64,000 nucleotides of DNA from Oceaniglobus ichthyenteri (lineage in GTDB: Bacteria; Pseudomonadota; Alphaproteobacteria; Rhodobacterales; Rhodobacteraceae): NCBI RefSeq assembly GCF_003057885.1, contig NZ_QAGK01000003.1:186001-250000 (forward strand), in the 5' to 3' direction. The translations under genes and the position numbers were made by a program. The notes beneath the pieces are model-generated. The model did no database searches. It worked only from the letters and a program-made list of their open reading frames with translations, and was not told the DNA's origin. This document shows, piece by piece, positions 31,247 to 36,151 of this stretch (within the stretch, counting starts at the first letter, position 1; each line of letters begins with the position of its first letter).

Positions 31247-32560
31247 TTAATGATCGATCGGCAGGCCGCTTGGGACAGTTTCGGGAATGCCCAAGCGCCC
31301 GGCCTGTGCCACCGGGTCGGTCAGGCTGTGCAGGAATGCCTCAAGTGCCGTAAGGTCGGCGTCGGTCAGGGCGATCGGTGGTGTTGTCACGGCGGCGCGA
31401 ATGGCATCAACATGGGCGATGTCGGCCAGTGGGCGCATATCATCGCCTGTGCCGATGCCAGGCATCATTTGCACATTCGCGATAATGTCATCCGGATTCA
31501 CAGTAAAATCGGTATGATGCTTTAGAAAATCCGACAATCGCGCAAATGCACCCGTATGCCCATAGGGCGCGGTCAGCGCGACGTTGCGCAGGCTGGGCGT
31601 GCGAAACCTGTAGGCATCTTGCGCCACGCCGGTCACTTCCATCCGGCCTTCATCGCGTTGGTGATCCTCGAACGACGCGGCCTTTCCGGGGCCAAATTGC
31701 GGAACGCCCATGGCGTGAAACCCGTGATCGGTTTGAAACGGGCCGCTGTGACAGGTGGCACATTGTGCGGCACCATGAAACAGATCCATGCCAAGGGCGG
31801 CATCATCGGCCAGGCTGTGTTCGCCGCGCAGCACTGTATCAAAGGGTGACGTATCGCTGCGCCATTCAAATTCGATGAAGGATGCAATGGCATTGGAAAT
31901 ATCGGTAAAGGCGATGGGCCGACCGGCGGCGATTTCGGGATATACCGCCTGAAACCGCAGCCTGTATTCAGGAATGTCGGCCACCCGCTGGCTCAGCAGA
32001 TGCCATGCGCCACCGGGGCCGGTGATCATGCCCTGACGTACCGCGCGGGCCACGTCGTTTTCGGAATAATGCCCGGCCATTTCATCCTGGCTAAGCACGG
32101 GAAACATGGTTTGTGCCGATAATACGCCATCAAACCCCACCACCATATCATCATCCATTGGCGTACGCAGCCCCGAGGCGCGGGCGCTATCGGCCTCAAC
32201 CCGACCATCGTGAAACAGCACGCTGAATTCCCGCGCGCCAAGGTTGAACAGGGCGGGCGCGTTGCGCGGTATCCGTTCTTCGGGCGGGTTATTGGGATCG
32301 GGGCGGCGATCGGGGCCCAGACCGATGCCACCTTCGCCAATCCCCAGGGGCAAGCCATCGGCGGTGCCGAATTTGGGGTGGTGGCAGGTGCCACAGGAAA
32401 TGTTGCGATTGCCCGACAGGATCGGATCCCAAAACAACAACTGCCCCAGTTTCGCGGCGTCCTGTGCCGCGGGCCGGAACATTGCATCGCTTACCGGCGG
32501 GGGCAGATCGCCCGCCTGTGCCGCGCCCGCGGTCAACAACACCCAAACCCATGATTTCAT
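31247..32560 (-). CDS. Diheme cytochrome c peroxidase/MauG family protein
   Basis: A 437-residue periplasmic protein with a signal peptide (MKSWVWVLLTAGAAQAG) and two c-type haem sites: CGTCH (Cys56, Cys59, His60) and CATCH (Cys267, Cys270, His271). SVLFHDGRVEAD and TPSLRNVALTAPYGHTGAF are shared by CcpA and MauG proteins. It probably reduces hydrogen peroxide using cytochrome c, or acts as a MauG-like oxidant. At 437 residues it is longer than classical CcpA (about 330) and nearer the MauG-like branch. The gene follows a candidate small RNA or leader with a terminator on the same strand (32628-32775). Confidence 0.9.
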   Translation of the reverse strand: MKSWVWVLLTAGAAQAGDLPPPVSDAMFRPAAQDAAKLGQLLFWDPILSGNRNISCGTCHHPKFGTADGLPLGIGEGGIGLGPDRRPDPNNPPEERIPRNAPALFNLGAREFSVLFHDGRVEADSARASGLRTPMDDDMVVGFDGVLSAQTMFPVLSQDEMAGHYSENDVARAVRQGMITGPGGAWHLLSQRVADIPEYRLRFQAVYPEIAAGRPIAFTDISNAIASFIEFEWRSDTSPFDTVLRGEHSLADDAALGMDLFHGAAQCATCHSGPFQTDHGFHAMGVPQFGPGKAASFEDHQRDEGRMEVTGVAQDAYRFRTPSLRNVALTAPYGHTGAFARLSDFLKHHTDFTVNPDDIIANVQMMPGIGTGDDMRPLADIAHVDAIRAAVTTPPIALTDADLTALEAFLHSLTDPVAQAGRLGIPETVPSGLPIDH

Positions 32561-32627
32561 GACATACTCCCACCATTCACAGGCCCAAGGATACAGGGTG
32601 AATGCCGGAATGCGTACAGGAATTTTG

Positions 32628-32775
32628 GATAAAAGAACACCGCCCCCGGGTTCACGGTTGGAACCTCAGGGGGCGGCGCCGATGGCGGTTATCCTTGCAC
32701 GCCCTTAGGCCGCTGGATGGTATCGGGTCTCCTCCCACGAACGCCATCAGATCTTGCAATCTCACATTGGTGTGA
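32628..32775 (-). ncRNA. Candidate structured RNA or leader ending in an intrinsic terminator
   Basis: The 261-base gap between the DUF2126 gene and the diheme peroxidase gene is packed with pairing. Read on the minus strand, a small hairpin (TCACA/TGTGA, 32762-32775) comes first. Then a domain closed by GATGGCG/CGCCATC (32742-32748 with 32681-32687) contains a GGG-AGGAGA-CCC hairpin. Last is a long stem (32661-32676 with 32640-32653) followed by TGTTCTTTT, a good intrinsic terminator. I cannot match it to a named RNA family. It may be a small RNA or a cis-acting attenuator of the peroxidase gene. Boundaries are approximate. Confidence 0.45.
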
Positions 32776-32821
32776 TGCCTTGTTTCCGGTGAAAAGTCCA
32801 CAAAAAACGTTTACGGATTGG

Positions 32822-35800
32822 TCATAAATTGGGCATCCGGCGCAGATCGAGGGTGAAGGGATATTCAGGATGCGGCGTTTCGGCCACCGGATCCCATGTG
32901 CCAACGGTGTGCCCGTGGGGTTGGAACCGCGACAGGCGGCGCGCCTCGGCCTCGTTTCCGTTGACCGGAAAGGTATCGTAATTGCGCCCGCCGGGATGGG
33001 CCACATGATAGGTGCAGCCGCCCAGCGCCTTGCCCGTCCAAGTGTCGTAAATATCAAAGGTCAACGGCGCATCGACCGGCAAAACCGGGTGCAGCGCCAG
33101 CGGCGGTTGCCACGCCTTGAACCGCACGCCGCCCACCGACACACCGTTGGTTTTGGTGCGGCTCATCGGCACCCGACGTTTGTTGCAGGTCACGATATAG
33201 CGGTCTGGATCGGCGCAAGTCAGCTTTGCCTGCATCCTCTCGACCGAACTGTCGGTATAGCGCACGGTGCCGCCGATTGCACCGGTTTCGCCCAACACAT
33301 GCCAAGGCTCTAACGCTTGGCGAATTTCCAGATGCGCGCCTTCATATTCGACCTCGCCGCAGAACGGAAAACGGAATTCGGCCTGGGCCTTGAACCAATC
33401 GGGCGACAGGTCAAATCCGTGATCGCGCAGGTCGCGCAGCACTTCAAGAAAATCCTCCCACACCAGATCGGGCAGCATGAACCGGTCTTGCAACGCTGTG
33501 CCCCACCGGGTCAGCGGCCCCTTCAGCGGGGCGGCCCACATCCGCGCGATGATGGCGCGCAACAGCAGTTGTTGCGCCAAAGACATGCGCGGGTCTGGCG
33601 GCATCTCAAAGCCGCGAAATTCGACCAGGCCCAAACGGCCCGTGGGGCCATCGGGGGAATACAATTTGTCGATGCAGATTTCGGCGCGGTGGGTGTTGCC
33701 GGTGACATCGACCAACAGATTGCGCAACAAACGGTCAACCAGCCAGGGCGGCGGCGGCGTGCCTTCGCCGGGGGCCGGAATTTGGTTCAGCGCGATTTCC
33801 AATTCATACAGCGCATCATGGCGCGCCTCGTCAATGCGCGGCGCTTGTGATGTGGGGCCGATAAACATGCCCGAAAACAGATAGGACAGGGCCGGGTGAC
33901 GCTGCCAATAGCGGATCAGCGAGGCCAACAGATCGGGCCGGCGCAAGAACGGGCTGTCGGCAGGGGTGGCCCCGCCCACCACCACATGGTTGCCACCGCC
34001 GGTGCCGGTGTGGCGCCCGTCGATCATGAATTTATCGGCGGCCAGGCGGGTTAGGCGGGCCTCTTCGTACACGATTTCGGTGATCGCGCGCACTTCGTCC
34101 CAATCTTTGGCCGGGTGCACGTTCACCTCGATCACGCCGGGGTCGGGGGTGACGCGGATCACATTCAGACGCGGATCATGGGGCGGGCCGTATCCCTCAA
34201 TATGCACGGGCAGACCTTGGGCTTTGGCCGCGGTTTCCGCTGCGGCGACCAGTTCAAGGTAATCCTCAAGCTTTTCAACCGGGGGCATGAACACGCACAG
34301 CCGCCCGTCGCGCGGTTCCACCGAAACCGCCGTGCGCACCGCGCCGCCGACTTCGCCCAATGTCTGTTCCACCCGATCCTGGGTGGGTTCCGAGGCGGTG
34401 AAGCTGCTGCGCGCCTGGTGTTTCTCGGCGGCTTCGGCATCGGTTTCGCCACCGTATTCGGGCAGGGGGGGCCGGGCATCAAACGGATCTTGCGGGATCA
34501 CATGGGGAAAGGCCGAGTCGGGCACATGGGGCAGGGTGCCAAGCGGCAGACGGTATCCAACCGGGCTGTCACCGGGCACAAGGTACAGGTGATTGCGGCG
34601 CAACGACCATTTTTCACTGCGCCAGCCTGCGGTGGCCTTTGCCTGCCATTTTTGCACGGGCAAGACATATCCCGAAGGTTCGGTCAGGCCGCGCGCAAAC
34701 ACCCGCGCGATGCGCTGCCGTTCTTCTGGGTCTTTCAGTTTTGAATTTTCCGGGGTGACATTTTCGGGCAGATTGGCCTCTTTGATGATCCATTCTGCCG
34801 GGTCTTCATAGGCGGGGGTCACGTTTTCGCCAGGCACGCCCAGGGTTTGCGCCATATCGGCCAAAAACTGCGCGGCTTGCTTTGGGGTTGCCTTGGCATC
34901 ACGGCCTTCTTCGGCCACCAGATCGGGGTTTTTCCAGACCGGTTTGCCATCTTCGCGCCAGTAGAGTGAAAATGTCCAACGGGGCAGGGTTTCGCCGGGA
35001 TACCATTTGCCCTGTCCGTAATGCAAAAAACCGCCGGGGGCGAACCGGTCGCGCAACCGGCGGATCAGTTGATCGGCAAAGGCGCGTTTGGTGGGGCCGA
35101 CCGCGCCGGTGTTCCATTCTTCGGCCTCGAAATCGTCAATCGAAACAAATGTGGGTTCGCCGCCCATGGTCAGGCGCACATCACCATCCGCCAGCGCCTG
35201 ATCCACCTTTTTGCCAAGGGCGTTCAGATCATCCCATGCGGTATCGGAAAACGGTTTGGTTATGCGTGGATGTTCGGCCACGCGCGTCACCTTCATGTCG
35301 AAATCAAACGTCACATCCGCCGCACTGGCCATGCCGGAAATCGGCGCGGCGTTGCGATAATGGGGCGTTGCGGCCAAGGGAATATGGGATTCGCCTGCCA
35401 ACAAACCGCTGGTCGGGTCCAGGCCGACCCAACCGGCACCGGGCAAATATACCTCGCACCAGGCGTGCAGATCGGTGAAATCCTTGTCGGTGCCTGCGGG
35501 GCCATCCAGCGCGGTCAGGTCGGGTTTCAACTGTACCAGATAGCCCGATACAAACCGTGCGGCCAGGCCGAGGTGGCGCATCGCCTGCACCAAAACCCAG
35601 GATGTATCGCGGCACGATCCCTTGCCGGTGGTGAATGTTTCTTCGGGGGTTTGCACACCCGGCTCCATCCGGATGACATAGCCGATTTCCTGTGACAACC
35701 GGCGGTTCAGCGTGACGATGAAATCATTGACCGGGGTCTTTTCGCGCGGCACCGACGCCAGAAAAGCCGACAATTGCGGACCCGCCGGTTCGGGCGACAT

Positions 35801-36151
35801 ATAGATCGACAGATCGGGCAAAATATCATCGTCATAATCAAACGGCCAATATTCAGCGCTGTCTTCGACGAAAAAATCGAACGGATTATAAACCGACATG
35901 TCGGCGGTGACGTCCACCTCGATCTTTAATTCGCGCACCGGTTCGGGAAACACATAGCGCGCCATCCAGTTGCCATAGGGATCTTGTTGGTGGTTCACGA
36001 AATGCGGCTGTGGCGATACCTTAAGTGCGTGGGAAATCACCCGCGTGCGGCTGTGCGGGGCCGGGCGCAGGCGAATGATCTGTGGACCCAAAGTCACGGG
36101 TCGGTCGTATTGATAGTGGGTCAGGTGATAGATGCTGGCATAAATCGACAT
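32822..36151 (-). CDS. Transglutaminase-like domain fused to DUF2126 putative amidoligase
   Basis: A 1109-residue cytoplasmic protein. Residues 1-85 are a bacterial transglutaminase N-terminal beta domain ([17 protein letters not shown]). Residues 160-260 carry the catalytic triad of a transglutaminase-like peptidase: Cys180 ([10 protein letters not shown]), His229 (DLHAWCEV) and Asp245 (LDPTSG). From about residue 290 to the end is DUF2126, classed in Pfam as a putative amidoligase, including [20 protein letters not shown]. The family is proposed to join or cut peptide bonds on small peptides, often beside alpha-E and ATP-grasp genes, which are absent here. The next gene upstream is a zinc peptidase. 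The start at 36151 fits the family N-terminus. Confidence 0.92.

Follow-up and report, generated by a model that had tools for sequence, protein, structure and literature searches.

A conserved structured RNA in Oceaniglobus is a candidate loop-loop sponge for CcsR-like small RNAs

Background

The closest precedent found for the RNA described here is CrfA of Caulobacter crescentus, whose G/A-rich stem-loop acts as a sponge for the alphaR8 siblings SisA-D; this targeting, of RNAs with the core UUUCCUCCCU, was shown experimentally (PMC12559287). The present RNA likewise carries a G/A-rich stem-loop complementary to the C/U-rich, anti-Shine-Dalgarno-type core of sibling small RNAs, and would work alike with a different scaffold, a three-way junction, and a different main partner, for which the loops of CcsR-like RNAs are predicted. 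The likeness is drawn from the description of CrfA. StsR of Rhodobacter sphaeroides is also a small RNA that targets another small RNA, UpsM (PMC8307010); its partner differs from the one predicted here, and this likeness too is drawn from its description.

The presumed partners in our case are of the kind of CcsR1-4, the Cuckoo/CIN1-type small RNAs of Rhodobacter sphaeroides, similar arrays being found here behind a DUF1127 gene. According to three papers, the CcsRs of this species derive from the transcript of ccaF1, a DUF1127 gene, and in Rhodobacter they are linked to stress defence and C1 metabolism (PMC8307010, PMC8625941, PMC10253847). In a word search of those papers the term 'sponge' was absent. 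No report of a CcsR sponge was found in the open-licence papers searched, in which 'sponge RNA' and 'CcsR' never occur together, and no joint mention of Oceaniglobus and small RNA was found there. CcsR1-4 carry a CCUCCUCCC motif, and the RNA described here carries the complementary sequence, making it a presumed antagonist rather than a member of that group.

The window analysed is a 64,000-nt stretch of the Oceaniglobus ichthyenteri genome (G000), which was compared with five other genomes of the same genus (G001-G005; G001 is 99% complete and G004 75%). The RNA lies in a 261-nt gap (32561-32821) between two minus-strand genes. Upstream is a transglutaminase-like/DUF2126 protein gene (32822-36151; Pfam PF09899, PF08379, PF01841) and downstream a gene for a di-haem cytochrome c peroxidase of the CCP_MauG type (31247-32560; PF03150).

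Structure of the predicted RNA

A structured minus-strand RNA in the DUF2126/peroxidase gap was confirmed, and the elements named in the original prediction are present on that strand. The dense RNA structure it had described was borne out by a 165-nt minus-strand stretch that folds at -66.7 kcal/mol (z -2.86), with 1 of 200 shuffles as good. The whole 261-nt gap was less striking (z -1.42), and the fold of its plus strand was not above shuffles (z -0.39).

The predicted small RNA spans about 135 nt (32631-32765, minus strand) and is conserved in five genomes, its start being placed from the putative promoter and its end from the terminator-like stem. From the folds of the five relatives, its core is a three-way junction (32679-32750) closed by P1, in which CTGATGGCG (32750-32742) pairs with CGCCATCGG (32687-32679); the predicted 7-bp pairing of GATGGCG (32748-32742) with CGCCATC (32687-32681) falls here and was recovered. 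The P2 hairpin TCGTGGGAGGAGACCCGA (32723-32740) has the consensus loop GGAGGAGA at 32735-32728, a 7-nt GAGGAGA loop in the window's own best fold, and its invariance and complementarity to CcsR-like loops mark it as the predicted seed. The AGGAGA loop reported at the outset does lie in this loop region, but its complementarity to CcsR-like loops had not been named. P3 (32691-32718) varies in sequence and length among the five relatives.

The 3' end (32631-32678) consists of a GC-rich terminator-like stem-loop (32678-32638) and a T-rich tail (32637-32631); the first two bases of TGTTCTTTT (32639-32631) fall within the GC-rich stem. What had been called a classical terminator holds as to the stem, which is strong in all five relatives with differing sequences, but a U-rich tail is clear in only two of the five (the window and G002). 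The stem was unlisted by a simple terminator scan. At the 5' side, a putative promoter (32772-32800) comprises TGGACT (32800-32795), a 17-nt spacer and CATCAC (32777-32772). A TGGAC[A/T]-N17-box element precedes the RNA in all five relatives, about 19-24 nt before P1 as counted by hand; it was absent from the calls of a sigma-70 promoter scan, and the apparent promoter match is weak. Outside the conserved core, a 5' hairpin, TCACA-CCAA-TGTGA (32775-32762), shares bases with the putative promoter and start.

Folding energy was examined for all five copies. The full-length RNA gave z-scores of -2.65 (window), -2.77 (G004), -4.48 (G003), -3.13 (G005) and -6.21 (G002). For P1-P3 alone the values were strong in G003 (-4.20), G005 (-3.85) and G002 (-4.04) and unremarkable in the window (-1.05) and G004 (-1.57), so the case leans on conservation more than on energy. 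P2 appears in the minimum-energy fold of all five copies, but the centroid folds of the window and G004 lack it. A small-protein mRNA was rejected, as no reading frame with a start and a ribosome site is shared by the five, in which start, frame, length and sequence differ; the peptide VGGD follows from the invariant bases.

Conservation within and beyond the genus

By DNA search the RNA was found in five of the six genus genomes (the window genome and four of the five others), in each case just downstream of DUF2126. In G001 neither the RNA nor DUF2126 was found, the RNA model having been run there only around the peroxidase. This genome has three CTCCTCCCAC sites, each preceded by a non-T base, and the invariant GTGGGAGGAGA is therefore absent from it.

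The fourteen bases TCGTGGGAGGAGAC plus CGA are invariant in all five copies. P2 is the most conserved part. Its four modelled pairs are the same in every copy and thus give no covariation evidence for or against it. Some P1 pairs do vary, and both P3 and the terminator stem have drifted. In P1, 97-100% of cells are paired and 2 of 9 pairs change on both sides: at one, two genomes have G-C in place of A-U, and at the other a single genome has C-G in place of U-A. P3 is poorly aligned, with 70% of cells paired. Overall, 86.1% of cells pair in the alignment, a value reached by 3 of 500 shuffles. The compensatory changes that the original prediction had asked of relatives exist in 3 of 23 pairs, but 71 of 500 shuffles equal that number, and sliding the alignment by +2 gives 5. 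Covariation overall is modest.

That the original prediction could not place the RNA in a known family was upheld as regards Rfam: in release 15 no family reached its gathering score for the RNA, the window's only hit being a tRNA, and at E<=5 positions 32500-32900 gave one chance-level plus-strand match, outside the RNA. An exact-pattern search of 84,980 species genomes returned Oceaniovalibus sp. ACAM 378, Kandeliimicrobium roseum, a Rhodobacterales MAG and Oceaniglobus trochenteri, which are probably the same loci as in G002, G005, G004 and G003, respectively. Family-wide pattern and model searches, of limited sensitivity, yielded no convincing copy in other genera. Among 30 DUF2126 loci in 30 genomes, the five genus loci matched the model at E 4e-11 or better, the next best being at E 0.21.

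A hairpin-pattern search of 295 family genomes gave matches in five, two of which belong to the genus. None of the three others lay in the context of the RNA when inspected by eye, one (L011) being a purine-rich stretch just before an ATG and two (L012, L015) lying inside long open frames. Model R1 matched 7 of 394 genomes; twelve candidates were scored per genome, so distant relatives could be missed. Two of these matches were true, and five weak ones (E 0.008-0.065) were rejected as lying in long open frames. The weak match L018 (in G395) contains GGGAGGAGAC without a P2 stem, beside an array of GTCACCCCATGAGGGGTTAGGAG-type repeats (about 1250-1480, partly masked) that we take to be CRISPR-like. 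One weak match (G017), although placed about 2 kb downstream from DUF2126, is part of a coding frame.

CcsR-like arrays in the same genomes

The surroundings of 26 DUF1127 loci in the genus were scanned for candidate partners. One tandem CTCCTCC array was found behind a DUF1127 gene in each of the six genomes, including the RNA-less G001, and its tandem hairpins carry CUCCUCCC loops, which we take to be the mark of CcsR/Cuckoo RNAs. In three folded hairpin pairs (G000, G002, G005) the motif lies in open loops of 10-13 nt. The cut stretches (L114, L110, L109, L106, L113 and L112 for G000, G001, G002, G003, G004 and G005) contain 6, 4, 12, 12, 5 and 9 copies of CTCCTCCC in that order. Repeats are near-identical in the G002 and G003 arrays, and copy number ranges from 4 to 12 between congeneric species.

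The sequence TCTCCTCCC occurs twice in the G000 array, six times in G002, four times in G003 and once each in G004 and G005. The G001 array has none and carries GATCCTCCC four times instead. In the whole of G000 there are 15 TCTCCTCCC sites, two of them in the array and one opposite the RNA itself. The presence of TCTCCTCCC in the array appears to track that of the RNA, which is suggestive and not proof. The G005 array has five GATCCTCCC against one TCTCCTCCC, and CUCCUCCC loops are present in G001 although no RNA was found there, so the phylogenetic link rests on six related genomes.

Pairing of the P2 loop with CcsR-like loops

The P2 loop resembles a Shine-Dalgarno sequence, and its complement is CUCCUCCC. 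With opening costs counted, the contact between the P2 loop and a CcsR-like loop ranked first in all five RNA-bearing genomes. It comprises 10-12 contiguous pairs, some of them G-U, between predicted open loops; in the window genome, for example, GUGGGAGGAGAC pairs with GUCUCCUCCCAU with one G-U pair. Energies were -14.9 (G000), -15.8 (G002), -13.4 (G003, where the best site has 8 pairs), -9.9 (G004) and -13.2 kcal/mol (G005), and shuffled RNAs did as well in 1/120, 0/120, 1/120, 4/120 and 0/80 cases, respectively. None of 160 random 345-nt window segments was as good in G000, the best reaching -10.3 against -14.9.

Opening-cost energy was the second statistic tried, after raw duplex energy had failed. 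By raw duplex energy, 26, 100, 74, 166 and 90 of 300 shuffled RNAs and 36, 121, 149, 251 and 218 of 300 shuffled arrays were as good in G000, G004, G003, G005 and G002, respectively. Such raw energies are unexceptional, since chance alone gives GC-rich RNAs long matches. The accessible complementarity to a partner seed that a sponge should have was therefore found with opening costs and not by raw duplex energy, while the partner is encoded in all six genomes, including the one without the RNA. The five RNAs also pair with the array of G001, at -21.0 to -22.6 kcal/mol as raw duplexes and, with opening costs, at -9.8 (G000), -12.4 (G002), -9.6 (G003), -9.8 (G004) and -9.9 kcal/mol (G005). The G004 RNA pairs with its own array (-9.9) no better than with that of G001 (-9.8).

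A proposed sponge mechanism

A sponge role is predicted because the unchanging P2 loop is complementary to CcsR-like loops. In the proposed mechanism, the RNA's own promoter and terminator would yield a stand-alone RNA of about 135 nt, and the P1/P3 scaffold would display the P2 hairpin, the GGAGGAGA loop of which mimics a Shine-Dalgarno sequence. This loop would form loop-loop pairs with CUCCUCCC in the loops of the CcsR-like RNAs encoded behind the ccaF1-like DUF1127 gene, and the pairing may sequester or destabilise these RNAs and so relieve their mRNA targets. We give this reading, a stand-alone RNA acting as a loop-loop sponge or decoy against CcsR-like (Cuckoo) small RNAs, a probability of about 0.5. 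What the sequences themselves show is that the RNA is structured and conserved, that its loop is invariant, that the same genomes carry a CcsR-like array and that 10-12 contiguous pairs are predicted between the two; from these we infer transcription of the RNA and of the CcsR-like RNAs here, their binding in the cell and a regulatory effect. It counts against a sponge that CcsRs were described in Rhodobacter, whereas the predicted sponge is found in one genus only.

More tentatively, the RNA may represent a new one-genus family in which the three-way-junction loop antagonises the whole CcsR array, with UCUCCUCCC in arrays that co-occur with the sponge, only GAUCCUCCC where it is absent, and the two co-evolving. 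If the sponge reading is true, a natural CcsR antagonist would add an extra layer of control to the CcsR system, and would constitute a CrfA-like alphaproteobacterial sponge against anti-Shine-Dalgarno siblings of another partner family.

Alternative roles

The original prediction offered two roles, a small RNA and a terminator-controlled leader. Genus-wide conservation, the invariant loop, a putative promoter of its own and the terminator-like stem speak well for the former, and a riboswitch or attenuator that controls the peroxidase through that stem now looks quite unlikely. All five genomes do have junction, stem and peroxidase gene in this order on the same strand, but in G003 the RNA and the peroxidase are separated by a 275-aa gene, and the peroxidase occurs in all six genus genomes, G001 with no RNA detected among them, and in 16 further genomes (61 searched), so direct linkage fails. 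Only the five RNA-bearing loci among 29 peroxidase loci examined match the model at E below 0.6, and no conserved antiterminator pairing was seen by eye in the five folds. The intervening gene (L056, 680-1507, in O. trochenteri) is presumably TolB/WD40-like. That the element plays no regulatory part and is simply a conserved region where the DUF2126 transcript terminates fits the stem following DUF2126 in five of five genomes but sits poorly with P2, not that stem, being the most conserved part, and we consider it very improbable. A GGA-containing hairpin loop is also a feature of Csr/Rsm decoy RNAs, in which GGA loops bind CsrA; no CsrA gene was found in the six genomes, and this role was rejected.

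A trans-acting small RNA whose GGAGGAGA loop acts on C/U-rich mRNA sites, and not on CcsRs, seems unlikely, if less so than a leader. The best single mRNA-target candidate is CTCCTCCCACGA in the window genome, which is perfectly complementary to TCGTGGGAGGAG over 12 nt. It lies some 17-30 nt ahead of the start codon of a gene that we take to be ABC-transporter-like (L068, C37:160370, near 1500 on the reverse strand). Inspection by eye of the other genomes with the RNA showed no like site in front of this kind of gene, and CTCCTCCCAC is not enriched over a reversed control (26 against 29 sites in six genomes). We give still less weight than to a leader to a sponge for alphaR8-like small RNAs of the SisA/MmgR kind, instead of or besides CcsRs, as with CrfA in Caulobacter. 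Matches to the suhB model below the family cut-off that combine a terminator with TTCCTCCCT or CTACCTCCCT-like cores do occur in all six genomes, but pairing was weaker: eight such loci from the five genomes with the RNA gave -4.3 to -8.8 kcal/mol where the arrays gave -9.9 to -15.8, and the best site was off the core loop in 3 of the 8. The same pairing test gave -1.3 for L084, a suhB match without the core. Compared with these readings, the CcsR-directed sponge is the one that we prefer.

The suhB-model matches (L089 and L095 in G000; L083 and L091 in G001; L102 and L087 in G002; L086 in G003; L088 in G004; L085 and L093 in G005) end in a terminator and look like alphaR8-type RNAs, some of a TTCCTCCCTGACTGGACAGG-like and some of a CTACCTCCCTGTTGGACT-like type; no CTCCTCC was found near the match at these loci. 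The core pattern TTTCCTCCCT was set aside as a guide to alphaR8 RNAs, many of the 30 sites examined by eye, out of 37, lying opposite Shine-Dalgarno sequences. A highly conserved terminator-ended stretch, ACTGCTCGATAGGTTTCTTGCCTGTATGAAACCTGCCTCAATAAC..., is present in five genus genomes (L094, L096, L098, L099 and L101, about 1480-1600) and looks like another small RNA.
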